NCBI GenBank assembly: GCA_003225295.1 | Contig: QHYZ01000091.1 | Span: 1-64,000, forward strand | Length of the DNA stretch: 64,000 nt | DNA from: Acidobacteriota bacterium | GTDB lineage: Bacteria; Acidobacteriota; Terriglobia; Acidiferrales; UBA7541 | Reading direction: 5' to 3' | Shown here: positions 1 through 15,383 of the stretch, in pieces | How positions within the stretch are numbered: the stretch's first letter is position 1 | Layout: each line of letters begins with the position of its first letter | Notes under the pieces: generated by a model | Told to the model about the DNA's origin: nothing | The model's database searches: none | What the model saw: the letters and a program-made list of their open reading frames with translations, nothing else | Position numbers and translations under genes: made by a program

Positions 1-3000
1 AACGGCCAGCGCTCCCACATCTGGAAGTGCTGGTAGAGCGGTTGGCGTTGCGTACCTCACACTGAAGGTGCATGTGCCACCGACCGCCAGTGGGGTGGTG
101 AAGGAACAGGTGTTTAGAGGCACGGAGTATAGCGTGCCAATGTTGACCAGGAGGTTCTCGGCTGTGATTGTCAAAGGCGCGCTACCCGTGTTGGTTACCG
201 TCACGACGCTTGTAACCGCAGCGCGTGGGCTTGGAATCGTGAAGGTGAGGGTCCGCACGCCCAATACGGTCGTCAGTGTTCCATTGGTCGCAGCGGTAAA
301 AGTCAAAGTACCCTGGGGAGCAGTCACCGTGAACGTCACGGTGTTGCTGGTTCCCCCTGGCGTCGTGACGCTGACGGTCCTCGCACCGAGCGCAGCGGTA
401 GCCGCGATCGTGAAGGTTGTCGTAACCGTAGTAGCAGTTACGGTTAAGGCGCCGGCGGTGACGCCGGTTCCAGACACGGTCACTGCCGTTGCGCCGGTCA
501 GGTTCGTGCCAGTCAAAGTCACCGTGCCGGTGGTGCCTTGTGCGCGTGACGAAGGAGCGATCGAGGTCAGCGTCGGCGGCGCTGAAGTAGCACCAGCCGT
601 GAACTCGACCGCGCCAGCGTCGACCGATCCGTTCTTCCTCGAAGTGCCGAAGAAGTCAGTCGCCGGTGCTTCGTTGTAGTTGGCAGTCGCAGAGGAGGGG
701 ATGTAATTGATGGCTGGCGAACCCGCCGCTAGGGCGTAGTTGCCGAGAGTAACATTAGTCGGGGATACCTGAGAAAGCGGGCCCCAACTAATGTTGATCC
801 AGTTGTTGCCCTCGTCCACTGTCGCCGCCGGCGTCAGGTTGAAAACCGGGTTGGGCACGGTCGCGTCCGAGATGCCTGGAGGCACCTGGTAGCCCGCCGC
901 CCCAAGTTCCGGTGGGATTCGCGAACCATTGCAGTACTGCTTAACGACGGCCGGGTTGGATCCCGTGTTGTTCCCGCCGGGATAGTCTGCCGCGTCCGTC
1001 AGTACAGAGTACGTCGGAGCGAGCGTGACGGTCGAGCTATGGTTGCTCGGGCCCGTGTCGCCGCGCACGCCAATGTCCCAATAGCTCACCGGGGAGGGGC
1101 AAGCACCGGTTGCCGACTGGCTCGGTGCTGCCGTCGTAGTAAACCCATCATAGAGCGTAACTATGTTCTGCTGGTTTAGGGTTCCCGGACCAAGGGAGCC
1201 TACACCGATGTAGAACGTACGGTTCTGCCAGAACACATTGTTGGCCAAAAGCGGATATGAGACGCTCCTGCAAGTCCCGTTGGTGGCAGTCGTGCCCGCA
1301 TAATGGCCTGCGGGGCAAGTGATGGAAGCCGGCAAATTCGCGGTCAGGACCGCGCCGTTCTGGACGCTCACGAGGCCAGCGGGCTGGGCTGTCGAAGTCG
1401 TAATGCAGGGTGATGGTGGCAGTCCAGTAGTGGGGCTGATGGGGCAGGGGCCCGACGAGCTGGCTAAGGGAGCCCCAATCGTGTTGAACAGCACGCCCGA
1501 CGACGCGGTGGTGTCGTTGGATATGACCGTGTTGTTGATGACATTCACCGCGAACGAGTCGACTAGCGAAATGCCAGCGCCATCCCAGCCGGCGACATTG
1601 TTGGCGATGATATTGTTGGTGACGTTCACAGAGTACCAGTTTGCTGGCGTGGTCGGGAAGGTTAGCACGTCCCCGCCGTTCACGGCCTGGAAACGTATGC
1701 CGCCGCCGCTGCCGCTTTCCGCGGCGTTGCCCATAATCAGGTTGGCATTGATCACCAAGCCCGGACCCACTCCGTCGCTTGGCGAAATGCTGCTAGGAGG
1801 CGGAACGCAATCCGCGTCGGTCGTGGTGCCGCATGTAGGATCGACATCGGGGGCACCCATGACGAGAATACCGCCGCCGTTCGAAGCAATCGTCGGGTTG
1901 GTACTCTGGTTGAACAGGATCGCGTTGTGCTCGATGTCACCGAAGTAGCTGAACCCAAGCTGACCGACGCCGCCGCCGTCGCCCGTGCTCAGATTCCCGC
2001 ACAACCAGTTGTAGTTGAACTTGTAGAAGTCGGAACCGGTGCAGAAGCTGACACCGCCTGCCCCTGCCGGCGTGGCCGAGAACAATTCGTCGCCGCTCGA
2101 AGAGTTCAGCGTGATCCCGTTGTTGTGCACGTTCACGTTCAGATCGTGGCAGTAGGGTAGCTGAGCGTTCGGAGCATTCGCATAGGCGACCGACTGGCAG
2201 GAGCCCGGATCCGCGTTTGCGGCGCCCTGGAGGTACGAGGGAGGGAATTCACCCTGACCCACGTTGATCCCGCCCGAGAGCGTTCCGGTATTGTTGGTCA
2301 CCCGGTTGTTGGCGATTTGCAAGTTATGCCCCCAAGCGTGCACGAAGATGCCGCCGCCCCCCTGGGAACTGTTGGTGATGGTCAGGCCGTCGATGCTTGA
2401 CGGATTGCACCAGAAGTTGCTCGGGAATGGATTGGGACTGGCAGTGCAATTGGCGCTTGTCAGAAGCGTAGTGCCGGTCGGGAACGTACCCCCTGCGGTT
2501 ACCCACGGATTCGATGGGAAGTTCACTCCCTTCGCCAATACCGTGATTGCCGCTCCTTCCAGCGCGCCCATCAGGCTTGGCTCTTGCAACATCTCAGCCA
2601 GGTTGCCATTCAGCGTGGCATCCCAACCGACAGTTGCCTCCGTCGGTATCCGATCTACCTGCGGATTGTTGGCAGTCGGCGTGAAGCCGAACCAGCCAGT
2701 CCCCGGGCAAGCGAACGCGCCGGTCGAATCGTAAGGATTCGAGCTGGACAGGGGCGCTCCATCGAGTGACAAACCAAACAGGCAGTCGACCTTCCGTCGC
2801 CACACATCCACCTTCCCGGCCGGATGCGTATTCGCGTTGAGGATGCTGGAGGCAGCTCCGACACCTTGCAGCCGGACCGGCTTCCACATCAACAACAGTT
2901 CTTGGTGGGTAGAGGGTGCATGGGTTACACCGGCGACAGTACACGCAACTATCCCTGTAGTTGTGGAGCAAGTAGGGTCAACGATGATCAGGTCGCCCGG

Positions 3001-6000
3001 CTTGGCGGCGTCAATAGCAGTCTGGATGCTTCCGCTCGCCGCGACGTGGGTAGGCGCTTTGCCGCCGATCGTGACGGTCACGGTGTCGATTGTTGATCTA
3101 CCGTTGTCGCCTCTGGTGATGACCAATTCACCGCACTGCGCAGCTGAGCCTCCGTATTGCGCTTGCTGTTGTATACCGCATGCCGGCACGGAGCCAGCTG
3201 GTGGCGTCGTACCTGTGATCAAAGTGTCGGTCCATGTCACTCCATGAAGTGGTACGCCACCTATCGTCACATTCGGGCACGCTGCATTGGCATTGCCACC
3301 GCCGCAGCCTGCTCCGCTTGGTGCGGGTCCGAAGCCATAGTTGCGCGTGATGGTCTTCTGATTGTATGGAGCTGTGGTAGCCGACGGCCCGGAGTACGCA
3401 TTGTTGTTCACGGTCTGCAGGCCGAGCGCAGTGATCCTAATGGTGTGGCCTGGCGCGCTCACCCAAGGTCCGACGCCGTCGCCGTCCACCTCTTTGATAG
3501 CTGGCGTAAGGTCCGGGTAGGCGCAGTCAACATTGTTGTACCCCGCACCGGCGAATGCAGACGTGGGCGTCACCGGGGTATCCATGTACTGGGTTTGTCC
3601 CGGCATGAACGGGATCTCGTAGCAGAACTGGCTGTAGGCCGGGTTGAACAACGGATCCGGGGCAGCTCCAGTTCCTGGGTCGTTCATGCATGTGACCATC
3701 ATCGTCGGCGCATACCCTGTCGGATTTGGTGGGTTGACTTCCCAAGTCGAGTAGGTCAGGCCGTCGTAAGTCCCCCACTGGTCGGTATACACGCGGGAGA
3801 TTTCGGTTCCGCTCCAATCCTTGATGGCTACCGGCAGGTTGGCCGGGGAGAATTTCTCGCCGAATTGTGGCGAGAACGGGTCGAATTCTGAAGTGAAGTC
3901 GTCCGTAATCACACCAGTGAAGTGCGCGGCAGTGTGAGCTGAGGTGAAGATCCAGAACTTCGCCAGCGACGAAGCCTGATCCTGCACCAGCACTTCTTTG
4001 CGGTCGCACAGATTGCGTGTCGCGCCGGCAAAAGGCGATACTTCTAGCGACTGTGGGAATAGGCTGATGTAGTCGGGGACGATGCGCGTCGCGCCAACGC
4101 ACGGCCAGAATTGCTCCACGCTTCCCGTGTCGCCCTCGCCTCGTGGCAGGTGCAATGAACCCAGATCCTGCGTCGGGTTCTGCGCATTGTTGGCATTGTA
4201 GCTGGCACCGACGGCAGCCTGGTCGGGAAGAATGTAAATCGCGGATCCTAGACCCGGGAACTCTTGGGTCACGGGCGCGATGTAATTGTCGCCGATCAGG
4301 ATGTTCTTATCCTCCTCCTTCACCAATTCATAGCCTGGAGGGGTCACCATTTCGACTACGTACTTGCCCGGGGGCAGCATGGGGGTGCCCACTCGATAGG
4401 CATCAGTGGTGTCCGGGTTCGGCACGCAAATCGTGCAGTTCGTACCCGCTGGCTTCCCGGTCGTCGGATTTATGCTGGTAACGCTCGGGAATTGGTACAT
4501 CCCGTCGTACGGCGCCGGCTGCACTTGATTCCAGTTGTGCATGCCGTCATAGCACTTGAACTGCGAGTTGTTTGGCAGCGCCGTCGGGCTCGTAGCAGTG
4601 CCGTGCTGGACATTGTTGTAGAAGTCCAGGTACATCGGCTGGTTAAAGAGCGTGAAGAAGAACAGATCGCCGGGGGCGCCGGGGGTGGTTGAGGTTGGGG
4701 CTGTGTACTGGCCCGGGCAGTTCATGTTGGGAATTCCATCGGTCCGGAAGCCTTGCGCCCAATCGTCCCAGCTGCTGGTCTTGGTGGTGTCGACCAACCT
4801 GAGGGACGTGGTTCCGTCCGGAGCGGTTCCCTCTTGGTACAAGTTAATGGTGACACCCGGCACGTCCGGCGTCCAACTGGTATGGATTAGCAAGCTGGGA
4901 TCGTCGAATGGCCGCGTTGAGGCGTAGATCACTTCTCCGCGGATGCCACCGTTCTCGCCGGCAGCGTATGGGACCTTGCCGAATTCAAGAAACGAGTTCT
5001 GTCCGGAGAAGCCTTGCCAGCCTTCACTGACAACCCAAGGCGGATCAACTCGGCCAGTCGACCCTCCGGCCGTATCGCCAGCAGGGCAGTCCGCCGATGC
5101 GCAGTATCTTGCGCCCGGCACGTGCAGGGCAGTGGGCAGACGCACAGCGGCTGGTTCGAGTGTGTTCGCCAGGTTCCCGCCAATGGTCGAGGTCCCCCCT
5201 CCCGGTGTACCGTCGGCCGGCCCACCCGCGTCGTAGACCACGTGGACTCCGGTGTTCTTGTAGCGAGTCGAATCCGTTTCAACAACATACCAGCTGAACA
5301 GCGGAAATATCTCGTTAAAGCCTGCGTTTCCGCTCAGGTCGGTATTGTTAAAGTTAGAGTAGCTGCCGTCACGGAACCGGATGTTCGTCGACACCAGCGT
5401 CAGTCCGGGTTCATTGGTGTCTTGAATGCCATTGTGGTTGAGGTCAAAGAAGGTCTTGGTGTACAAATTTGCCTGCCACTGGTTCATGGCAATCGGACCC
5501 ATATTCGCGCCTCCGCCAGCCAGACGGACGGGCGTCGATAGGCCGTCCACCAGCATATCGTTCCACTGGTCAAAGACCGTGATTCTCCAGTCGCCATTGG
5601 GAAGGCCCGACATAGAGAAGCTCCCATCGGCGGCACACTTGGTGAACGCAAAATCTTCGCCGTCCGGATCTCCAAAGCTTACATAGCACTGGGTGAAAGC
5701 GAAGCTGCTATTGTCGCCGCTGCTATAGAGCCTCTCATCCGGAGTGCGGCTCATGCGCTCGGTCGTTACCAAACCCGTCACAGTATTCGTGCAGCCAGTG
5801 CCGGTGACGTTCGGGTCGGTGCCGGCGCAGACGCCCGCCAAGCGGCCATTGATGATCTTTGGGTTGGCGAAGCCGATGGCTACGTGGTATCCCGCCGGCC
5901 CAAACTCTTGGAAGAAGCTCGGCTCGCCGATCCTCAGGAACGAATCGTGGGCCTTCTGGCCGTCCAGCGTGTTGGTTTGCAGCCACTCTTCACCTTTCGC

Positions 6001-8931
6001 AATCCGGTCTGCGCCCGGCGTGGCCACCACGCCGTACCTTCCTGGCATCAGGTTGGCAACCACAGCCTGACCCGCCAGCGGGGATAGCGTTTTGCCGTCC
6101 GCTTCGTACTTCGGGCAAGTCACGATTGTGCCGGTTATACCGGTTTGCGTAGGATCGCCCGCACCGATCCGCGAAATAGTGGAGATTGGGCACGCATCGG
6201 AATTGTTGTTGGACGGGTCGGGTGTTCCCGCCAAGCTGTTCACCAAGGGCTGGTTAAACATGTCGTAAGTCATCTGTCCTGTGGCATCGCCAGTGCCGCC
6301 AGCATCATCAAAAAGAGTGATATTGAACTGTCCCAGGCCGGGCTCGTTGGGCGACAATATATCGACTCCGCCGCCGCCATCTTGCTCACCGTTGAGCGGG
6401 AAGTCATCCTCGTACACAAACACGGAAAGTTTCGACGGTGGAAGGGGGGTCGGTTGCGTCAGCACGGTAACCGCAGGAAAGGTACCAGTGCTGGTACATG
6501 TTACTGCTGGCGCCACAGGGATGCAGGCGATCGGAGCACCACCCATGCCATGGCCCTTCTGTTTATTGGCGGTCTCGAACGGGTTGGCAGCGTCCCCCGG
6601 CAGGACCGAGAGATAGTAGCGCTTGGTCGGATCTAGATGGACGGCACTGGGATTCAGGACGGTGAATCCATTTCCCGTAGTGTCGGGTCTGCAAACGCCA
6701 TCGCCCACATCACACACTGCGGCGACATGGGTCCCAGTGGCTGGATCCACGATCGTCTGTCCCGATTCACAAGATAGTGGCCCGGTGCAACCCGTTGCCA
6801 CGAGCGGCATGTAGCTAGTGTGGAAGTTTGTGCCAAATGTTGGAACGATGCCGCTGGCCGCGGTCGGGCATCCCGCCGGTGGCGGATTCGTTGTGCACCC
6901 AGGGTTTACATAGAAGGTGCGATCTTCTTCGATGATCCAGCGATAGTCGGGGATGACAGTTTTCTTATCTGCGCCGTCCAAAACCGTCACGCTAAGACCG
7001 GTCGCTGCCGGAAAGATGAGGGTCACCGTCGCACTCGCGGCGCTCACCGTCCCCTGCGAGTTCTGCGCCTTGTAGGTAAATGTGTAGGTACCGGCTGCGG
7101 TGACCGACGCGTTAAACGCGCCAGTCTTGTCCACAGAAAGTGTCAGGCCCCCCGATGCCACTGCGCTCCCAGGTGCAACCGAAAGCGGATAGCCCGCCGC
7201 GTCCCGGTCAACCGCCAGGATACCTGGGGGCTTGATGCTCAGGGCTGTGGCGTTCGACGTGTACGTGATGTTGCCCATGGTGATTCCGCTGCCCGCCTCA
7301 AGCGGTGCCGCACCAAGTGTTACCGAAGCGGTGATGTTAGAGGAGCATACCCCCGCCGTAACAGTACCGTTGGCGCAGTAGGTAAAGGATGTAGGAGGGC
7401 CCAAGTAGGTAAACGTCCCGTTCGGGTTCAGAGTCAGTCCGGCTACGGTCCCCACAACCTGAACACCGAAAACATTAGTATCGTTGGCGATCACACCCTT
7501 GGCTGGATCCGACACGGTCAGCGTCTGGCCCGCAAGCACGGAGTTGTAGGTATCCGCTCGGGCTATTGCACCTGTAAACGCAGGGGCGGCTGGGAGTCCA
7601 CTCCCGTTGACACTAATGTAGGCCACCATCCCGGCGTCGCGCGCGATAGCATTGGCCGACAGGCTCAATTCACGGTCGTATACCGGGAGGGCCGTCGCAC
7701 CTGCTGCCGTGGGTACGTTCACCATTACGTCATAAGTCTTACCCGCGGCCAGGAACACTTCGCTCTGCACGCGGGAAACACCTGGCAACGGATTTCCATC
7801 CTCGGCCACTAGGCTGAAGCCCGAGACGGCAGCAGCAGTTGTGCCGGTTGGCACGACGGCCGGTGTAGTGACGGAGCCAACAATCGAAGGTACGTGCATG
7901 CGCAAGCCAGCATTAACGAAGCGCACCAAAACCGATCCGGTGACTCCAGTCGCCGGAGAAACCGGGAACAGTGAACTCGAAGGGCTAGTCTTGTTGAATG
8001 CAACTCCGTTAATAAGATAGTACAGTGGTGTGTAGTTAACAGCTGGAGGATAGCAGGTGTGGTAGTTCGGTGAGCTGGGATTGCCGCACTGGTTTGGCTG
8101 GCCAGACCACACGGCGGTCTCGGTGAAGCCGGCAGTGTTGACCGCGGCGTTGACTGCGTTGTTTTGGACTGGGTCGATTTCACTCAGAAGCACTGGAATT
8201 TCGGCGTTGTAAGTGACGGCGGGAACCGTCGTCCCGACTGCTGGATACGCCGTGCCCGCGACGCCTCCAGCGGGCGCAGTGGTGACCACCAGGATTCCGT
8301 ACAGCCCCATGGGACCCTGGATCGACGGGTGCGTGCCGGACTCAATCAGATATGTGCCCGGCCGAAGAGCTGTCCAAGTCACTGCCGTGGTCGCGCCAGG
8401 CGCCACTTCGGTGGAGAACGACTGCACGCGCGGACCCTGCGGCGGTGGCGTGCCTACGCCAGTCAGCGGCGCACCCGGCGGACCTCCGGCGATGGGCCAC
8501 GTGAGTGGCTGCGCGTTGGTGTGGTCCGGGCTCGCCGTGGATGTCGCTGACGTTCCGAGACCCGTGTCCAACTGACCCACGATCAACAACGAAGTAGGCA
8601 CGGAATTCGCGCCAAACGTAAGGTTATTCGTGAGGTTGATCGTCAGGCTTGTCCCGGTCGCGACATAGGGAACGGTAATCACGACGGGGGACCAGCCGCC
8701 AACTACGGCCGCCGCCGCCGGATTCAAAGGGAGGCAGGTTGCGGTGGCGCCGCTAACGGCCAGTCCGCAACTGTAGCCCCACATCGGCACTGCTGAGCCA
8801 TCGGGCAGGGTTGCGGTGGCCGGTCCGGCAGTCAGATTAACCTGGCCGAAGGCCACAACCGCCGCGAACGGAAGAATACAGACTACTCGTAGCGCGGCCT
8901 TCAAGATAGCTTTCATATTGTTCGTTCGCAT
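1..8931 (-). CDS. Giant exported multicopper-oxidase-like / beta-helix surface protein, 3' end outside window
   Basis: I read this frame triplet by triplet from the ATG at 8931 to the window edge and found no stop, giving at least 2,977 codons. Residues 1-29 look like a signal peptide. Residues 30-450 resemble a multicopper oxidase (PDGS..WGY near 43-53, PGTYLIESGT near 191), but the HCH-type copper ligands are absent. A cadherin/VCBS-like IANDT motif lies near 480. SdrB/CNA-like segments follow, with DLNHNGIQD near 1160 and PPGKYVVEMVTPPGYE near 1520. A right-handed beta-helix region begins near 1968 (IQTAIDAAKPGD), is rich in N.I..N repeats, and ends near 2755 at DFFGTSRKNGSVDAGAVEF, a typical closing motif. 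TIG/IPT-like and HYDIN/ASPM-like domains then run to the edge. It starts 15 bases after the upstream oxidase gene, so it is probably the last known member of that operon. A role as a surface scaffold or adhesin is inference. Confidence 0.85.
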   Translation of the reverse strand, partial: MRTNNMKAILKAALRVVCILPFAAVVAFGQVNLTAGPATATLPDGSAVPMWGYSCGLAVSGATATCLPLNPAAAAVVGGWSPVVITVPYVATGTSLTINLTNNLTFGANSVPTSLLIVGQLDTGLGTSATSTASPDHTNAQPLTWPIAGGPPGAPLTGVGTPPPQGPRVQSFSTEVAPGATTAVTWTALRPGTYLIESGTHPSIQGPMGLYGILVVTTAPAGGVAGTAYPAVGTTVPAVTYNAEIPVLLSEIDPVQNNAVNAAVNTAGFTETAVWSGQPNQCGNPSSPNYHTCYPPAVNYTPLYYLINGVAFNKTSPSSSLFPVSPATGVTGSVLVRFVNAGLRMHVPSIVGSVTTPAVVPTGTTAAAVSGFSLVAEDGNPLPGVSRVQSEVFLAAGKTYDVMVNVPTAAGATALPVYDRELSLSANAIARDAGMVAYISVNGSGLPAAPAFTGAIARADTYNSVLAGQTLTVSDPAKGVIANDTNVFGVQVVGTVAGLTLNPNGTFTYLGPPTSFTYCANGTVTAGVCSSNITASVTLGAAPLEAGSGITMGNITYTSNATALSIKPPGILAVDRDAAGYPLSVAPGSAVASGGLTLSVDKTGAFNASVTAAGTYTFTYKAQNSQGTVSAASATVTLIFPAATGLSVTVLDGADKKTVIPDYRWIIEEDRTFYVNPGCTTNPPPAGCPTAASGIVPTFGTNFHTSYMPLVATGCTGPLSCESGQTIVDPATGTHVAAVCDVGDGVCRPDTTGNGFTVLNPSAVHLDPTKRYYLSVLPGDAANPFETANKQKGHGMGGAPIACIPVAPAVTCTSTGTFPAVTVLTQPTPLPPSKLSVFVYEDDFPLNGEQDGGGGVDILSPNEPGLGQFNITLFDDAGGTGDATGQMTYDMFNQPLVNSLAGTPDPSNNNSDACPISTISRIGAGDPTQTGITGTIVTCPKYEADGKTLSPLAGQAVVANLMPGRYGVVATPGADRIAKGEEWLQTNTLDGQKAHDSFLRIGEPSFFQEFGPAGYHVAIGFANPKIINGRLAGVCAGTDPNVTGTGCTNTVTGLVTTERMSRTPDERLYSSGDNSSFAFTQCYVSFGDPDGEDFAFTKCAADGSFSMSGLPNGDWRITVFDQWNDMLVDGLSTPVRLAGGGANMGPIAMNQWQANLYTKTFFDLNHNGIQDTNEPGLTLVSTNIRFRDGSYSNFNNTDLSGNAGFNEIFPLFSWYVVETDSTRYKNTGVHVVYDAGGPADGTPGGGTSTIGGNLANTLEPAAVRLPTALHVPGARYCASADCPAGDTAGGSTGRVDPPWVVSEGWQGFSGQNSFLEFGKVPYAAGENGGIRGEVIYASTRPFDDPSLLIHTSWTPDVPGVTINLYQEGTAPDGTTSLRLVDTTKTSSWDDWAQGFRTDGIPNMNCPGQYTAPTSTTPGAPGDLFFFTLFNQPMYLDFYNNVQHGTATSPTALPNNSQFKCYDGMHNWNQVQPAPYDGMYQFPSVTSINPTTGKPAGTNCTICVPNPDTTDAYRVGTPMLPPGKYVVEMVTPPGYELVKEEDKNILIGDNYIAPVTQEFPGLGSAIYILPDQAAVGASYNANNAQNPTQDLGSLHLPRGEGDTGSVEQFWPCVGATRIVPDYISLFPQSLEVSPFAGATRNLCDRKEVLVQDQASSLAKFWIFTSAHTAAHFTGVITDDFTSEFDPFSPQFGEKFSPANLPVAIKDWSGTEISRVYTDQWGTYDGLTYSTWEVNPPNPTGYAPTMMVTCMNDPGTGAAPDPLFNPAYSQFCYEIPFMPGQTQYMDTPVTPTSAFAGAGYNNVDCAYPDLTPAIKEVDGDGVGPWVSAPGHTIRITALGLQTVNNNAYSGPSATTAPYNQKTITRNYGFGPAPSGAGCGGGNANAACPNVTIGGVPLHGVTWTDTLITGTTPPAGSVPACGIQQQAQYGGSAAQCGELVITRGDNGRSTIDTVTVTIGGKAPTHVAASGSIQTAIDAAKPGDLIIVDPTCSTTTGIVACTVAGVTHAPSTHQELLLMWKPVRLQGVGAASSILNANTHPAGKVDVWRRKVDCLFGLSLDGAPLSSSNPYDSTGAFACPGTGWFGFTPTANNPQVDRIPTEATVGWDATLNGNLAEMLQEPSLMGALEGAAITVLAKGVNFPSNPWVTAGGTFPTGTTLLTSANCTASPNPFPSNFWCNPSSIDGLTITNSSQGGGGIFVHAWGHNLQIANNRVTNNTGTLSGGINVGQGEFPPSYLQGAANADPGSCQSVAYANAPNAQLPYCHDLNVNVHNNGITLNSSSGDELFSATPAGAGGVSFCTGSDFYKFNYNWLCGNLSTGDGGGVGQLGFSYFGDIEHNAILFNQSTNPTIASNGGGILVMGAPDVDPTCGTTTDADCVPPPSSISPSDGVGPGLVINANLIMGNAAESGSGGGIRFQAVNGGDVLTFPTTPANWYSVNVTNNIIANNVAGWDGAGISLVDSFAVNVINNTVISNDTTASSGVLFNTIGAPLASSSGPCPISPTTGLPPSPCITTSTAQPAGLVSVQNGAVLTANLPASITCPAGHYAGTTATNGTCRSVSYPLLANNVFWQNRTFYIGVGSLGPGTLNQQNIVTLYDGFTTTAAPSQSATGACPSPVSYWDIGVRGDTGPSNHSSTVTLAPTYSVLTDAADYPGGNNTGSNPAVVKQYCNGSRIPPELGAAGYQVPPGISDATVPNPVFNLTPAATVDEGNNWINISWGPLSQVSPTNVTLGNYALAAGSPAINYIPSSATANYNEAPATDFFGTSRKNGSVDAGAVEFTAGATSAPPTLTSIAPSSRAQGTTGTVTLTGTNLTGATAVTVSGTGVTAGALTVTATTVTTTFTIAATAALGARTVSVTTPGGTSNTVTFTVTAPQGTLTFTAATNGTLTTVLGVRTLTFTIPSPRAAVTSVVTVTNTGSAPLTITAENLLVNIGTLYSVPLNTCSFTTPLAVGGTCTFSVRYATPTALPALPDVGALAV

Positions 8932-8946: not shown

Positions 8947-10581
8947 TCAGTTGGACTCATCGATCACAAATTCACGGGAATCAACCAGCATCATCATCAG
9001 CATTCCGCCGGGGAAAATATTGTTGGTGGTGATCTCGCGCTCGTTGTGCGAATGCCACATAAACGCAAAGCCGGCTTCGCCAGAGGGTGAGTTCGCGATC
9101 GTGCCCGACGGCGGGGTTGAGCCGGTGGCGCCGCAATTAACGGCTAGAGGACCGGCGTTCGTACCGGCGCTGCATCCCGTCGCCCGCAAAGTGGCGTCCG
9201 GTCCGAGATAGGGGCTGCCGCCATACCAGGGACCGTTCGTGAAGAGGTTCGGATCGGGCAGGGTTGTCGGGCCGCCACCCGGCACATCGCCGAACGGAGC
9301 AAGTTCCATCGGCTTGTTGTGGTCCTGGCACCACTCGAAATAGTTGATCGCGGCGGTTGCGCTGGTGTTGTAGCCGTTGGCATCCGGGGTACAGGAAAGC
9401 TTGGCGGAAGCGTCACCAGAAGCAGGATTGTGACCGTAGGCATCCCAGTTCAGACCCTTGGCAGTCCAGTAGAAAATTCCGTCAAAGGCTAGCCCGGGGG
9501 TCGTCGAAGTGGTGAACAGCAGAGGTCCAGCGAGACTAGTCGGATCGGTTGCGCTGAGAATCAAGTTCCCGTCGCGCCCCAGGATGCGCACATGGTTGCC
9601 ATGCTCGTGGAACGGATGTTGCCAGCGGCCCTGGCCGATGACGCGCAACAACACTTGCTCGCCTGGATGCATGTGAGGATTGCCGTTGTAAGGCTGGTGC
9701 GGATACTCCACGGCATAGTTCGGGTCCATGTCGTCGGGCATGGAGCGCCCGTTAATCAGGAAATATGCAGGATGGTAAGGCTCGGTCGCGACGTTGAGAC
9801 TGCATCCGGCAGCTCCAGCCACACATCCAGCCCTTGCCGCAACTTGCGCTTGTGCCTGGTAATGAATGTCGGGGTCCATCTCGGAAAACTGGAACAGGTA
9901 TTCCCGATCGTAGCAACTCTTGGCGTGGTCGTAAGCGGCATGCGACAGGCGGAAATCGTGTTCGCCCCAGTGCGCTTCCGCAGCCAGGTTGGAAGCAGCC
10001 AGCCCGGTCGAGCAGTTGGCGGGGACCGCAGCCGGGAGCACAATGATGGCCCCGTAAAGGCCCATCTCGACCTGCAGGTCGCCTTGCGTTCCGCTGTAAT
10101 ACGCGCGTGTACCGGGTGTCCCGGCAACGAAGCTATAAGTTACCGTCCCGCCAGGCGCGGCCTCCTGCGTCAGCACGCCGGCAACACCCCCCGTGGTGGA
10201 TGTCAGCGAAAAGCCGGGAAACAGAATCGACGTGTTGCCGGCTGAAGTGGGGAGTCCATTTGCGAGGTTCACCGTGACCGTCTGTCCTTCCGTGACGATC
10301 AGCGTGGGTCCGGGAACTTGCATCGTGGGGCAGGTAGCGCCAGAGATAGCCGCGGGCGCAAAGCCGCTCGGCGCGACACGGCAGCCGTACCCCCAGGAGT
10401 AAATCATCGACCCGTCCGGCTGGCTGATATAAGCCGGCTGCGCGGTCAAATTGAACGTGGGACCGGTTATCCCCGGAGCCGCTCCATGCGCTGTAGCTGG
10501 GAGCAACAAAGCCATTGCCACCATCGCCGCCAGAAGCAGTCGTGTCTTCGAGATTGCTTTTTTCGTTTTCGTAGCATTCAT
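8947..10581 (-). CDS. Exported multicopper-oxidase-like protein with HPxHxHGxH motif (second of three)
   Basis: From the ATG at 10581 this is 544 aa with a signal peptide (hydrophobic core about 15-29, AHG near 31-33). An N-terminal cupredoxin-like domain has PDGS..WGYGC near 56-67 and a decayed loop YYSGTQGDLQVEMGLYG near 161-177. Its C-terminal part carries HPFHEHGNH (H322, H325, H327, H330), which matches the third laccase copper motif, and MWHSHNEREI (H510, H512). The usual HCH cysteine of the type-1 copper is replaced by Ser511. This combination is reminiscent of MofA of Leptothrix and OmpB of Geobacter (family recall, not searched). An alternative start at 10602 adds seven residues and has its own Shine-Dalgarno. 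The gene lies between the other two multicopper genes, and its product probably acts outside the cytoplasm. Confidence 0.85.
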   Translation of the reverse strand: MNATKTKKAISKTRLLLAAMVAMALLLPATAHGAAPGITGPTFNLTAQPAYISQPDGSMIYSWGYGCRVAPSGFAPAAISGATCPTMQVPGPTLIVTEGQTVTVNLANGLPTSAGNTSILFPGFSLTSTTGGVAGVLTQEAAPGGTVTYSFVAGTPGTRAYYSGTQGDLQVEMGLYGAIIVLPAAVPANCSTGLAASNLAAEAHWGEHDFRLSHAAYDHAKSCYDREYLFQFSEMDPDIHYQAQAQVAARAGCVAGAAGCSLNVATEPYHPAYFLINGRSMPDDMDPNYAVEYPHQPYNGNPHMHPGEQVLLRVIGQGRWQHPFHEHGNHVRILGRDGNLILSATDPTSLAGPLLFTTSTTPGLAFDGIFYWTAKGLNWDAYGHNPASGDASAKLSCTPDANGYNTSATAAINYFEWCQDHNKPMELAPFGDVPGGGPTTLPDPNLFTNGPWYGGSPYLGPDATLRATGCSAGTNAGPLAVNCGATGSTPPSGTIANSPSGEAGFAFMWHSHNEREITTNNIFPGGMLMMMLVDSREFVIDESN

Positions 10582-10582
10582 T

Positions 10583-10615
10583 GGCTCTCTCCTAGCTCTC
10601 ATTGCCGCTCTCCTA
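10583..10615 (-). promoter_or_regulatory. Two tandem Shine-Dalgarno/ATG units at the start of the second oxidase gene
   Basis: AGGAG at 10610-10614 precedes the ATG at 10602 by 7 bases, and a second AGGAG at 10589-10593 precedes the in-frame ATG at 10581 by 7 bases. The two units are near-copies offset by 21 bases. The upstream gene's TAG stop (10613-10615) overlaps the first Shine-Dalgarno, so the two genes are probably translationally coupled. Confidence 0.6.
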
Positions 10616-12163
10616 ATTGATATGGACCTCGGTCATCAGCCCACCGAAGTTCTCGGCATCGTTCGACAAGTGGTCAAGATTGGGGGTGTAGAGATAGAAC
10701 ACGCTGCCCGATGGATACTTAGTCGTATCGGTGGCATCCAGAATCACATCGAGCGACTCGCCACCAGCCAGCGTGATCGAGTTGGTGTTGTAGTTGAGGT
10801 TGTTTCCCGCTTGGTCGCGCAGCAGCTTGGCATTGATCCCGACGACATTCATCGGAATCCCTATGGAGGCTAGGGTCTGATATTCCGTGACGTCAAGGTC
10901 GGAAATGCGGAGCAGCGCCTTTTTGCCCGCCGGAATATTGATGATCGTAGGTAGCGGCTGAGAGAAATGGTTTACGCCATCCGCCGATTGAGTCTGCAGC
11001 GGACCCGGCGTCACTGTGTCGGGATAGCTCCGTCCGTTCAACAGGAAGAATTTGTCCTTCATGTCCGCAAATTCTTCGGGGTTGAAGGTCATTCCGATAA
11101 AGTGGAAGCTGGGGTCGAACCCGTGGATCTGGATCGGATACTCGACATCGTATGCTGTCGAGCCATCGCCATCGTTATACGCATACTTACCGCCGCCTGT
11201 GGCGCCGGTATTCACTGCTGGCAGGGGATTGCTGCACAGGATATCGGTGGTGGAATCGCATTTCGTGCGCAGATCCAACTGCTGTTGCTGGAGCGCGGCG
11301 TAAAGGGCGCCAGTGGCTCGATTCTGCCGTGGGCGAACGTAAAGTTGCCCGACCATGCCCATCTGCAAGTGCTCGGGGGGCGTGATATGGCAGTGCCAGA
11401 AGTAAGTGCCGGCGTCCGGCGCAAGATAGTAATACGTGAAGCTCGCGCCGATGTTGATGGCCACCGAGGCGTCGGGCACGCCGTCGTAGAATGACGAAGC
11501 GTTGGGATATCCGTGGAAGTGGACGGTGTGCTGCTCGAACAGGTCTGGCCGCATGATCATGCCCACGTTAGTGAGCGTGAGGAAGAATTCGTCATCCTCG
11601 TCGATCGCCATCAATGGAGCGGGGATGTTCCCGTTCATCACCCCGACATCCATGATTTGACGCGGATCCACATGCCCGTCGAGACACAGGCCGGTGCAAC
11701 TTCCAGCAGCCAGGGCATCACGGTCAGGAACCAGTCCCACAGCGCCGTTATACGTAATGCCGGTGGTGGCCGGATCGCCAGGCTGCAGCAAGCCCGGAGT
11801 CACCGTATTGAAGACGCTCGGGAACTCGGTGCCGGGCAGGCCGTTCGCAATGTCCGAGATCCCGGATAGCGGCCCGAAGGAGAACATGTACGTCTGTGTG
11901 CCGTCTCCCATCGTCGAGTATCCGTCGCCGCCCGAGATCTGCTGGCATTTGATAGCGCCGTTTACATGGGCGGGTGCTGCCGGATAACCACTGGTGCCCG
12001 CATAAGTCGGACCGGCGTAGGCCGGCTCCGAATTATTGCTGGTCGCCGTCGGGTGCGTAATCGTGCTGGTTGGACACTGAACACGAAAAGACTGTGCGCT
12101 CGCGACCGCAGGAACAAGACATACTAAAAGCATTAGCAAACAAATCTGGTACGGCTTTCTCAT
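10613..12163 (-). CDS. Exported multicopper-oxidase-like protein with HxHG and HCH motifs (first of three)
   Basis: 516 aa from the ATG at 12163, preceded by AAGGAG. A frame extending to 12268 adds 35 residues before the clear signal peptide (hydrophobic 7-22, ASA.Q near 21-24), so I reject it. Copper motifs are HTVHFHGYP (H212, H215, H217) and WHCHITPPEHLQMGM (H257, C258, H259, H265, Met268/270). The second contains a type-1-style Cys-His...Met set next to trinuclear-type His residues. A second cupredoxin-like domain ends near 516 without the HPxHxHGxH or terminal HCH motifs of ordinary three-domain laccases. Those motifs sit in, or are degraded in, the next gene. It heads the three-gene set. 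Substrate is unknown; oxidation of Mn(II) or Fe(II) is a hypothesis. Confidence 0.85.
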   Translation of the reverse strand: MRKPYQICLLMLLVCLVPAVASAQSFRVQCPTSTITHPTATSNNSEPAYAGPTYAGTSGYPAAPAHVNGAIKCQQISGGDGYSTMGDGTQTYMFSFGPLSGISDIANGLPGTEFPSVFNTVTPGLLQPGDPATTGITYNGAVGLVPDRDALAAGSCTGLCLDGHVDPRQIMDVGVMNGNIPAPLMAIDEDDEFFLTLTNVGMIMRPDLFEQHTVHFHGYPNASSFYDGVPDASVAINIGASFTYYYLAPDAGTYFWHCHITPPEHLQMGMVGQLYVRPRQNRATGALYAALQQQQLDLRTKCDSTTDILCSNPLPAVNTGATGGGKYAYNDGDGSTAYDVEYPIQIHGFDPSFHFIGMTFNPEEFADMKDKFFLLNGRSYPDTVTPGPLQTQSADGVNHFSQPLPTIINIPAGKKALLRISDLDVTEYQTLASIGIPMNVVGINAKLLRDQAGNNLNYNTNSITLAGGESLDVILDATDTTKYPSGSVFYLYTPNLDHLSNDAENFGGLMTEVHIN

Positions 12164-13098: not shown

Positions 13099-13626
13099 TC
13101 ATCCGACGGAGCCCGCTGCTCTCGCTCGCTCGCTGTGGTGGTGGGCGAGCCCGCCGATACCATCCTCGGGCAACCCAGATGCGTCTCCATTGTCCATTGC
13201 CGTCGTCGACTGCACCACTTGCGGGTCCTCACTGGTCAGCAATCGCCGAATCTGACGCAGCGTGCGCCATGCCGTCTTGTACGTAACGCCTGTTTCGCGC
13301 TGAATCCGCTTGGCGGACAAGCTGCTGTTTGTGGAACCCATTAAGTAGATGACGTAGAACCAAGTCTTGAGGGAAGTGGTGCTCTTCGCAAAAACAGACC
13401 CAGTCAGCGGGTATATGTGATGCCCACAGTGGTCGCAGGCGTACGCCGTGCGGCCAGTCACGCGATGATGCTTTCGCTCGATGCTGCACTTCTCACACTT
13501 GGTGACCCCATTCGGCCAGCGCTGCTCTTTGATGTATTCGAGGCAGGCATCATCATTCGCAAATTCGCGGTTAAAGTCGGCCACAGAATAGAACCGTTTC
13601 TTGGCGATGCGCGTTCTTGGCTTCAT
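13099..13626 (-). CDS. Truncated IS1595-type transposase N-terminal domain protein
   Basis: About 175 aa from the ATG at 13626 (an in-frame upstream start at 13686 is also possible). A zinc ribbon with CEKC and CDHC pairs is followed by a helical segment (TWFYVIYLMGSTNSSLSAKR, then TYKTAWRTLRQIRRLL) typical of the N-terminal half of IS1595/ISXO2-family transposases. In that family a DDE nuclease domain beginning with a VDE(T/V)Y-like motif follows. Here the protein ends about 45 residues later in unrelated sequence, so the catalytic domain is missing. It is probably a dead remnant, or a domesticated DNA-binding domain. I saw no terminal inverted repeats. Confidence 0.65.
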   Translation of the reverse strand: MKPRTRIAKKRFYSVADFNREFANDDACLEYIKEQRWPNGVTKCEKCSIERKHHRVTGRTAYACDHCGHHIYPLTGSVFAKSTTSLKTWFYVIYLMGSTNSSLSAKRIQRETGVTYKTAWRTLRQIRRLLTSEDPQVVQSTTAMDNGDASGLPEDGIGGLAHHHSERARAAGSVG

Positions 13627-13813
13627 GTCCGCCTGCAGAGATATCAAGGGTATTGCCGTACTTGTATTTAAGGGATAGAAAACCATGGGTGTCTGAAAAC
13701 GGCGCGGCGAGCTGACTCGATCCCTGCAACCGCAGATCCGGATCGCTCACCAACCATGGCCTGTTCCTAAATAATGGCCTCCAATTGAACAAGCAGAGCC
13801 CACAACCCGGGAA

Positions 13814-14506
13814 TCATTTGGCCTTGCACAGATCCATGAGGCGAGGGACGTTGTGAACCTCAATGGCTTCCCTTCGAAGTCTTACGAGCCCCTGATTTTC
13901 CCAGTTGGTCAGGAGCCGGCACACGGTGAACGACGCCATGGAGGTCATTTGCGCCAGCGCCTCCTGCGAGACCTTGATTTCGAAATGGCTGTTCACTTTC
14001 TGACCTATTTGGTCAAGCAAACGAACCAACCCATGAGCCAGTCTTGGCGCAACCGTTTCCGTAGACACTTCACAAAAACGGCGTTCCAGCTCTTGAAGGC
14101 GCTGTTCAAGGAGATGCTTAGCGTTCGATCGAAGGGCCGGGAGACGCTCTAAAGCAACCTCAAAGGTCACTGCGTCCCAGGCAAGAACCTTGCAATCCTG
14201 GAGGGCTTGGGCTGTCGAGGAGTGCCTGCTCCCCGGCACCAAAGGAAGCTCGGAAATTAGGTCGCCGGGGACGCACAGCCGAACAATGATTTCCGTGCCG
14301 TGTTCGCTGCACTGCGTTATTTTCGCACGCCCTTCAGTCAGCAACAAAATTTGCTCAATCGGATCGCCTGCGAAATACATCACCTGGCGGCACATGAAAT
14401 CGATAGGGCGCGCCATCGATACGATATTGGTACAAACGGAACTAGGAATTCCCGCAAATAGCTCAGATCTTGTCATCAGTGAACACTTCTCCGCGCCCTC
14501 GGCCAT
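13814..14506 (-). CDS. Crp/Fnr-family transcriptional regulator
   Basis: 230 aa from the ATG at 14506, which has a good GGGAG Shine-Dalgarno; a longer frame to 14566 lacks support. Residues about 15-120 form a cyclic-nucleotide-binding beta-roll (HGTEIIVRLCVPGDLISELP). A linking helix follows, then a C-terminal winged helix with a CRP-type recognition segment (SQEALAQMTSMASFTVCRLL). No cysteine cluster for an Fe-S sensor is evident, so it is not a classical FNR. The gene stands alone, about 1.7 kb upstream of the multicopper operon and on the same strand. Control of that operon is possible but unproven. Confidence 0.85.
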   Translation of the reverse strand: MAEGAEKCSLMTRSELFAGIPSSVCTNIVSMARPIDFMCRQVMYFAGDPIEQILLLTEGRAKITQCSEHGTEIIVRLCVPGDLISELPLVPGSRHSSTAQALQDCKVLAWDAVTFEVALERLPALRSNAKHLLEQRLQELERRFCEVSTETVAPRLAHGLVRLLDQIGQKVNSHFEIKVSQEALAQMTSMASFTVCRLLTNWENQGLVRLRREAIEVHNVPRLMDLCKAK

Positions 14507-14666
14507 AATTAGGTCTCCCAGGCTGCCTGGAGTATTTCGGATGGAACTCCAGCCAGCGCACGTCAAACCTTCAAGTTAGTAGTTTGTTAGCGAAGAACGG
14601 CTAGACACCGCCAACTAAAAATGCGCGAGGCCGTAAGCCGTCGGTTTGCACAGATTCAGCAGATCT

Positions 14667-15383
14667 TTATTCGCAGGAGGGTGTGGGAGGCGCGCGTCCG
14701 AGGAGCGACACTAAGAGGAGTTTGCTGATTCTCGCAAAGTTCGCTCTTGGAAGAAAGTCCGTCTCCCGGCGAGCGTGTAACAGGTACTTCCATCCCGAGA
14801 AATCTCCTACTGGCAATTTCGGCGGTGTCGCAACCGCGTCGGTCGGCGGCGGCAACTCCTCACCATTCAGAGTCTTCCCTGACCCACCGGAGACTCCGGG
14901 AAATGAATATGAATCGGCCAATGAAAAAGAAGCGTGGCCGTCATTGAGAAGGACGGCCACGGGACCTTCTCGCCAAGCTAAACTGACGATGAGATCGGGA
15001 ATGCCATCCCCGTTCACATCGTCCGCCGCGATTCGAAGACCACCGGAGAGCGCGACCAAATCTACAGATCGCACCCCGCCGTCGCCGAGCTGAACTTGAA
15101 TCCGGTAAATTGATTGTGAAGGACTATTCGATCCAGGTTCAATAGTCGCCAGATTGGGGCGACCATCCCCGTCGAAATCGGCAATTGCAAAGTCTAAGCG
15201 ATGCCCCGTCGTAGGCAAACTAACATTACTTGCTTGCGCTGGTATGGTACTAAAGAAAGATGCAACAAGAACGAGCAAGCAGCCCCGTAGGGAAGCGAAC
15301 AGCGGGATGAGCCGCCCAGCCAGTTTGCTCCGCGAATGCACGTCTGAAATCACAATGACTCGCACTAATGCATCGTCATTCAA
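14667..15383 (-). CDS. Exported FG-GAP/VCBS-repeat protein, short
   Basis: 238 aa. A long N-terminus leads into a hydrophobic stretch (about 25-45) ending in PAQA, likely a signal peptide. Two calcium-binding FG-GAP motifs are visible, DFDGDGRPN near 70 and DVNGDGIPD near 124, matching the integrin-like beta-propeller repeat. The family usually has more blades. After about residue 190 the sequence becomes Arg-rich (HARRETDFLPRANF) with no repeat, as if the gene were truncated or the frame changed there. Function unknown; extracellular binding is likely. Confidence 0.65.
   Translation of the reverse strand: MNDDALVRVIVISDVHSRSKLAGRLIPLFASLRGCLLVLVASFFSTIPAQASNVSLPTTGHRLDFAIADFDGDGRPNLATIEPGSNSPSQSIYRIQVQLGDGGVRSVDLVALSGGLRIAADDVNGDGIPDLIVSLAWREGPVAVLLNDGHASFSLADSYSFPGVSGGSGKTLNGEELPPPTDAVATPPKLPVGDFSGWKYLLHARRETDFLPRANFARISKLLLVSLLGRAPPTPSCE

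Follow-up and report, generated by a model that had tools for sequence, protein, structure and literature searches.

Three adjacent genes lie on the minus strand of the analyzed window, a 64,000-nt stretch of contig QHYZ01000091.1 (positions 1 to 64,000) from an Acidobacteriota bacterium (assembly GCA_003225295.1). The first gene, P1 (10613-12163), encodes 516 aa with a signal-like N-terminus and two cupredoxin domains. Its domain 1 carries the motif HTVHFHG (H212-T-V-H215-F-H217 at 11513-11530), which provides the first type-1 (T1) His and two trinuclear His, and the motif HCHITPPEHLQMGM (H257-C258-H259-x5-H265-x4-M270 at 11354-11395), which provides the T1 Cys, His and Met and two further trinuclear His. 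Domain 2 of P1 has no ligands and was recognized only weakly (Pfam Cu-oxidase at 19.2 bits, under its cut-off of 21). The second gene, P2 (8947-10581), encodes 544 aa, although a start at 10602 is also possible. It presents a signal-like N-terminus, a first cupredoxin domain without ligands and a second domain with the motif HPFHEHGNH (H322-P-F-H325-E-H327-G-N-H330 at 9592-9618), of which H325 and H327 are trinuclear His, and a C-terminal HSHNE (H510-S511-H512 at 9046-9054).

The third gene, P3 (1-8931), encodes at least 2977 aa of an exported protein, runs off the contig end and is a candidate third subunit. Its first part (7612-8844, about aa 30-440) consists of two cupredoxin domains without copper ligands, and a P3 profile matched the Nitrosomonas europaea blue copper oxidase (PDB 3g5w) over both domains (E = 9.2e-17). 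The long C-terminal part (1-7539) matched Big_9 and SdrD_B, with weak beta-helix and TIG matches. A complete paralogue of about 2960 aa was found on a contig that we labeled C245.

Division of the copper ligands between P1 and P2

The preliminary description of this locus, which reported the ligands of one multicopper oxidase divided over two polypeptides, was confirmed, and its residue numbers are exact. P1 and P2 have separate starts preceded by ribosome-binding-like sites (judged by eye), hydrophobic N-termini, a stop codon between them and different reading frames, indicating that the split is not a single-base error. In addition, a second copy of the operon is present on another contig of the same genome, with 80% (P1) and 83% (P2) identity. 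The interval first described did, however, leave out the third gene. One detail was also misread: the HSH of P2 had been described as a motif with Ser where the T1 Cys is expected. We found that it aligns, weakly but collinearly, with the trinuclear HxH motif of domain 2 of the Nitrosomonas enzyme (IHDHVD), a motif that carries no Cys, and that HPFHEHGNH aligns with HAIHTHGH of the same domain.

P1 supplies a whole T1 site (H212, C258, H265, M270) plus four trinuclear His (H215, H217, H257, H259), and P2 supplies the other four (H325, H327, H510, H512). It had been stated beforehand that the idea of a shared site would fail if each protein alone formed a full site; by ligand count, neither chain has the ligands for a trinuclear cluster, and a homotrimer of P1 or of P2 could not complete one. 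Taken together, P1 and P2 present the T1 site and the eight trinuclear His of the multicopper oxidase superfamily by motif alignment, although metal binding, O2 reduction and substrate oxidation were not assayed. The interpretation first proposed, that a working site would need a heteromer or a rearranged copper layout, is partly supported: the ligands are divided 4+4 between two exported proteins, the division is conserved and a working trinuclear site would need both proteins. The idea of a damaged T1 motif in P2 is not supported, since its two motifs are the normal non-T1 half of a trinuclear cluster, whereas the P1 motifs are a complete T1 site plus the other half, as in the first domain of type C two-domain oxidases. 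The copper layout is thus not odd in space but only in its gene division.

Conservation and relationships of the three genes

The arrangement is conserved, mainly in Acidobacteriota and Burkholderiales. The order P1-P2-P3 was observed in 16 of 17 regions and, in a broader set, in 85 of 89. The P1 motifs were invariant in 17 of 17 sequences. In the larger sample, the motifs were intact in 105 of 106 P1 and 103 of 103 P2 and absent from the first 470 residues of 102 of 102 P3, none of which has HCH or HxHG there. Across 107 P1 rows (window included), the eight ligand positions were 100% identical except H217 (99.1%), which one P1 (locus L111 of our sample) has lost. Across 103 P2 rows, H322, H325, H327, H510 and H512 were 100% identical. 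Only 0 of 20,000 (P1) and 1 of 20,000 (P2) random position sets were as conserved. P1 and P2 were separate ORFs in 103 of 103 loci where both were found, although P2 is broken into two ORFs in three loci (L098, L121 and L149). Signal-like N-termini were inferred for 105 of 106 P1 and 102 of 103 P2, but the starts had been chosen to favor such N-termini. Among 72,556 plasmid and chromid records, full-length P1 and P2 were found in the same 8. A single pattern scan yielded 534 stretches encoding a relative of P1 by a loose criterion (tblastn E <= 1e-3), of which the best 80 were examined, indicating that the genes are widespread in soil bacteria. Homologous genes are also present in Cupriavidus metallidurans CH34 (L164). 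As to a link with type II secretion, secretin, ATPase, membrane or pseudopilin relatives were found in 12 of 65 loci with at least 8 kb upstream; this search did not include the window, among whose ORFs none was recognized by eye, and we do not use it as an argument here.

The type C oxidase 3g5w is the best solved-structure match for P1 (E = 5.5e-15), whose HTVHFHG motif aligns to it, for the P2 profile (2.1e-16) and for the P3 profile. As a single sequence, however, P2 best matched a laccase (4f7k, 6.3e-9), with 3g5w second, and the two P2 domain 2 motifs align to 3g5w with weak scores of their own (E = 0.048 and 75). In a quick tree, P1, P2 and P3 each formed one clade (SH-aLRT 100, 99 and 99). 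A structure model of the window's P2, built with 50 P2, 33 P3 and 22 P1 rows, was moderately successful (pLDDT 72.4, pTM 0.73) and superposed on whole two-domain protomers: Z = 21.5 to 3g5w (257 residues, 3.1 A), 21.2 to a metagenome two-domain laccase (2zwn) and 21.8 to a nitrite reductase. Domain 2 was only moderately modeled, the HSH region was under pLDDT 50, and the Foldseek TM-scores were modest (0.58 by target length to 3g5w, rmsd 6.7). Structure prediction of the two proteins together had been suggested as a check on the divided site. No multimer prediction was made, but we exploited one locus (L102) in which P1 and P2 lie in one frame with a single stop between them, reading this stop as a residue and aligning the sequence with nine other such rows and 23 single rows; a first alignment, which seemed to place the P1 rows on the P2 half, was dropped before prediction. 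The linked model failed (mean pLDDT 46.2, pTM 0.36) and gives no support for the interface.

We then searched for fused single-chain relatives using P1 in 396 genomes of the phylum, and P1, the P2 profile and the P1 profile in 399, 399 and 300 genomes of the order Burkholderiales. No ORF joining P1- and P2-like parts was seen, although only 3-6 candidates per genome were scored, not all matches were covered and several frames of 815-1019 aa were not examined. One P1-profile match has a 1070-aa frame that needs a stop to be read through, and long stop-to-stop frames around P1 in two regions (L076, 1112 aa; L079, 1214 aa) matched P1 only.

These genes share with type C two-domain oxidases the two cupredoxin domains per chain, the T1 site in domain 1 (in P1 only) and trinuclear ligands from neighboring protomers. 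Two-domain laccases are described as homotrimers (PMC3192119). They carry all four motifs in one gene; here the motifs are divided between two genes and the third candidate subunit has none in its first 470 aa. Six-domain oxidases (ceruloplasmin, hephaestin, MnxG) comprise, like the ring proposed below, six cupredoxin domains with most ancestral sites lost, but in a single chain, and the bacterial ones are described with T1 in domain 2 and the cluster between domains 2 and 3 (PMC3600357) and not in the first domain of a pair. MofA of Leptothrix, a genus of Burkholderiales, is a large bacterial multicopper oxidase described as one protein with all four motifs in one sequence (PMC8218464). A search for MofA, OmpB and MnxG relatives had been named as a test; none of these sequences was available for comparison, which leaves kinship to them undecided, and Mn(II) oxidation was not assayed. 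In heterodimeric fungal laccases of the Pleurotus POXA3 type, also oxidases of unlike chains, one chain is a complete oxidase. Within a literature search that covered few subscription papers, we found no mention of a heterodimeric, heterotrimeric, heteromeric or split multicopper oxidase and no title on such a system, apart from the term heterodimeric laccase and two unread papers on a fungus (PMC10673308) and on plants (PMC8517187) that contain heterotrimer or heteromeric.

A putative heteromeric oxidase

Our results suggest that P1, P2 and the N-terminal part of P3 are three paralogous two-domain subunits of one secreted multicopper oxidase, descended by gene triplication from a homotrimeric type C two-domain oxidase (probability of about 0.78). 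In this view, they would assemble as a heterotrimeric ring of six cupredoxin domains. The substrate would give electrons to the T1 copper in P1 domain 1, and these would pass along His-Cys-His to a trinuclear cluster at the interface of P1 domain 1 and P2 domain 2, where O2 would become water. The other two interfaces would have lost their ligands and be structural, and the absence of ligands from P1 domain 2, P2 domain 1 and both P3 domains is as expected if only one interface of a ring is catalytic. The analysis itself establishes the motifs, their 4+4 division, their conservation, the operon, the common fold family and the single origin of each subunit, whereas the physical complex, its stoichiometry, its copper loading and its catalysis are inferences. 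The place of P3 in the ring, in particular, rests on homology, conserved order and lack of ligands only. The substrate is unknown; a reduced metal or a phenol are the likely candidates, because the proteins look extracellular and P3 looks like a surface protein; no substrate, metal content or expression data were obtained.

Alternatively, it is possible, though less likely, that P1 and P2 form the active site as a heterodimer or other heteromer without P3 in the ring, and that P3 is a surface anchor or scaffold that only resembles the subunits. All ligands sit in P1 and P2, P3 is 2504-3905 aa in the seven regions nearest the window (L063-L069), with Ig and SdrD matches in the window's own P3, and seven distant pairs examined in the Burkholderiales-order sample (L209-L215) show the same 4+4 division with only two genes, a signal-less T1 protein and a partner with a Tat signal. 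On the other hand, P3 is only 332-440 aa, about two cupredoxin domains, in five distant regions (L070, L071, L072, L074 and L079), it is kept next to P2 in 85 of 89 loci, and solved two-domain oxidases are described as trimers (PMC13151041). It is unlikely that P1 acts alone as an electron-transfer or single-T1 protein, with another role for P2 and no trinuclear cluster: P1 domain 1 does contain a full T1 site by itself, but a lone T1 protein would not need the four trinuclear His of P1 (100, 99.1, 100 and 100% kept) nor the four of P2 (100%). A copper nitrite reductase relative is more doubtful still. The P2 model is as close to nitrite reductases as to two-domain oxidases, and Foldseek ranks a nitrite reductase first, but P1 has HCH and P2 adds HxH and HSH, so that all eight trinuclear His are present, whereas nitrite reductases keep HCA and a single type 2 copper. 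Finally, although three-domain and six-domain oxidases hold all four motifs in one chain, a decayed or mis-assembled single-chain oxidase is contradicted by the second intact copy, the separate ORFs, the signal-like N-termini and the conservation of the split in at least two phyla.

Known oxidases of this kind keep all four copper motifs in one gene. Here, the oxygen-reducing cluster can only be made by two gene products, and searches and annotation by single-chain motifs can therefore miss it; a Paraburkholderia record labels all three genes as hypothetical protein. It is somewhat more likely than not that these genes represent a class of multicopper oxidase built from three different paralogous gene products, forming a heterotrimeric six-cupredoxin ring with exactly one T1 and one trinuclear site, the latter shared between two different polypeptides. 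Such a class may have been overlooked because surveys look for all motifs in one chain. It would be a living counterpart of the proposed step between homotrimeric two-domain oxidases and single-chain six-domain oxidases. The divided site allows each half to be mutated separately, and the arrangement makes the origin of ceruloplasmin-like six-domain oxidases directly testable.

Division of the copper ligands between two genes

We first examined whether the two minus-strand genes of the preliminary description encode the ligands reported for them. P1 (10613-12163, minus strand) is 516 aa long and presents H212, H215 and H217, followed by H257-C258-H259, H265 and M270. P2 (8947-10581, minus strand) is 544 aa long and presents H322, H325, H327 and H330, followed by H510-S-H512. 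The observation that these ligands are split over two polypeptides was therefore confirmed. Both proteins begin with hydrophobic, signal-like N-termini. P2 starts 31 bases after the stop of P1 (10 bases if the start at 10602 is used) and in another frame, so the split is not one sequencing error. The same genome (8.13 Mb, 385 contigs) carries a second copy of the operon on contig C245, with 80% identity for P1, 83% for P2 and 81% for the tested part of the third gene. Upstream of P1, a transposase-like zinc-ribbon ORF (13099-13686, minus strand) and a Crp/Fnr-like regulator (13814-14566, minus strand) were recognized by eye and were not searched.

Domain 1 of P1 (about residues 172-280) matches the first domain of two-domain oxidases, the best match being 3g5w (E 5.5e-15), and matches Cu-oxidase_3 of Pfam. 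It contains HxxHxHG and HCHx5HxxxxM, which is a complete T1 site (H212, C258, H265, M270) plus four trinuclear His (H215, H217, H257, H259), while domain 2 of P1 has none. In P2, domain 1 has no ligands. As a single sequence, P2 matches the laccase 4f7k best (6.3e-9) and 3g5w second. A profile built from 17 P2 sequences matches 3g5w best (2.1e-16, whole chain) and aligns HPFHEHGNH with HAIHTHGH, and HSHNE with IHDHVD, of its domain 2. These two stretches are weak taken alone (E 0.048 and 75) but are collinear with the strong match of domain 1. HSH is therefore read as the HxH motif of the trinuclear site, and not as a T1 motif with Ser in place of Cys as had been proposed. Each chain holds four of the eight trinuclear His.

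The third gene, P3 (1-8931, minus strand), starts at 8931 and runs to the end of the contig; the window begins at base 1 of contig C147. It encodes an exported protein of at least 2977 aa (about 3000 aa). A profile of its first part matches 3g5w over both domains (E 9.2e-17), without ligands. The rest of the window's P3 matches Big_9 and SdrD_B and, weakly, beta-helix and TIG models, so that this giant protein begins with two ligand-free cupredoxin domains and continues with Ig, SdrD and weak beta-helix-like matches. In distant lineages P3 is 332-693 aa. Relatives of the long C-terminal part occur as a separate neighbouring ORF in 15 loci, 12 of them in distant lineages, although in the other three (loci L084, L085 and L110) P3 may simply be broken.

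Conservation and genomic context

P1 relatives (E <= 1e-20) were found in 15 of 396 genomes of the phylum, including the window's own. P2 was then found in 14 of those 15, and the exception has P1 at a contig end. Of 17 regions retrieved, 16 have P1-P2-P3 in order. We then extended the search with a pattern scan of public genomes, which yielded 534 stretches encoding a relative (tblastn E <= 1e-3). The best 80 of these were kept and belong to Acidobacteriota, Burkholderiales (Paraburkholderia, Burkholderia, Collimonas, Cupriavidus, Pandoraea, Trinickia) and a few bins labelled only as Proteobacteria, Gamma- or Deltaproteobacteria. Of 89 loci (those 80, 7 from other genomes and 2 plasmid records), 85 have all three genes. 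In loci L092 and L114 the record ends within 0.3 kb of P2, and in L098 and L149, and also in L121, P2 is broken into two ORFs.

Over the 106 loci with P1, both motifs are present in 105 P1. The exception is locus L111, the only P1 with a lost ligand, where H217 is replaced by Ser through either a true change or a sequencing error. Two contigs were retrieved twice, so that 104 of the 106 P1 are distinct. P2 has its motifs in 103 of 103, and P3 has no HCH or HxHG in its first 470 residues in 102 of 102. Hydrophobic N-termini were found in 105 of 106 P1, 102 of 103 P2 and 93 of 102 P3, although starts were chosen in a way that favours them. The eight P1 ligands present an average column conservation of 0.999 against 0.687 overall, and the five P2 His 1.0 against 0.636. 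Finally, among 72,556 plasmid records, P1 (at least 80% covered) and P2 occur in the same 8, including the megaplasmid of Cupriavidus metallidurans CH34, and P1 has one further short hit in Deinococcus ficus.

Other genes are found near the operon at several loci. A small exported protein of about 160 aa (14426-14983 in locus L063, 13708-14193 in locus L200) follows P3 in 17 of 24 loci with at least 1 kb downstream and is possibly a fourth component; the L200 copy has no Pfam match. A cytochrome c-like protein lies downstream of P3 in locus L164 (27422-29047), with relatives in 6 of the 24 loci with at least 1 kb downstream. Type II secretion-like genes (secretin, ATPase, membrane protein, pseudopilin) were found upstream of the operon in 12 of 65 loci with at least 8 kb upstream (9961-12165 in L164, 627-1835 in L092, 427-1686 in locus L147). 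The window was not part of that search and none was recognized by eye in its ORF list. The inference that the proteins are located outside the cell rests on their N-termini, the surface-protein-like P3 and these secretion-like genes.

Origin, predicted fold and inferred assembly

In a quick maximum-likelihood tree of 78 rows, the 21 P1, 21 P2 and 21 P3 each form one clade (SH-aLRT 100, 99 and 99), with P2 grouping with P3 (96). The AlphaFold model of P2 (pLDDT 72.4, pTM 0.73, with the C-terminal region containing HSH under 50) superposes on whole two-domain protomers, with tied Z scores of 21.8 for 4kns, 21.5 for 3g5w and 21.2 for 2zwn. Foldseek gives E 2.8e-14 for 4kns and 2.4e-12 for 3g5w, with modest TM-scores (0.60 and 0.58 by target length). 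Two-domain oxidases are described as trimers with the cluster shared by two protomers, type C having T1 in the N-terminal domain (PMC13151041). The simplest model is such a trimer made of three different subunits, in which only the interface between P1 domain 1 and P2 domain 2 would keep its ligands.

The suggestion that a working site would need a heteromer or a rearranged copper layout was partly supported: the trinuclear His are divided between two chains, but the T1 motif with Ser for Cys in P2 is not supported. Modelling the two proteins together had been put forward in advance as a test of this idea; the linked P1-P2 model failed (pLDDT 46.2, pTM 0.36), and no complex was observed or modelled. 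The motifs, their division and their conservation are read from the sequences, whereas the assembly, and P3 as the third member of the ring, are inferred; copper binding, O2 reduction and substrate were not assayed.

Related systems

A second, simpler case was found in the Burkholderiales-order sample. The seven pairs of adjacent two-domain genes that we looked at (loci L209-L215) show the same 4+4 division of ligands: gene a has HxH...HxH, and gene b has HTIHxHG or HTVHHHG and HCH...H...M. In six pairs gene a has a twin-arginine-like start while gene b, the T1-bearing protein, has no signal as called, which would fit co-export of an assembled pair (hitchhiker export). This is an inference from N-termini only, and in L209 both proteins have signal-like starts.

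Bacterial six-domain oxidases are described with T1 in domain 2 and the cluster between domains 2 and 3 (PMC3600357), whereas here T1 is in the first domain of its chain. MofA is described as one protein with all four motifs (PMC8218464), and in the Mnx operon only mnxG encodes a multicopper oxidase (PMC5622069). Relatives of MofA, OmpB and MnxG had been named beforehand as a point to search; no sequence of these three was compared, and no ORF joining P1- and P2-like parts was seen among the matches listed for the phylum and the Burkholderiales order, which are not exhaustive and in which not all long frames were examined. Phrase searches for heteromeric or split multicopper oxidases found none among the papers searched. 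The arrangement differs from the two-domain oxidases described as trimers in that its three inferred subunits are different proteins. The division is real, conserved and mechanistically sensible, and our results suggest that it represents a multicopper oxidase whose active site is encoded by two genes, in a conserved three-gene operon.
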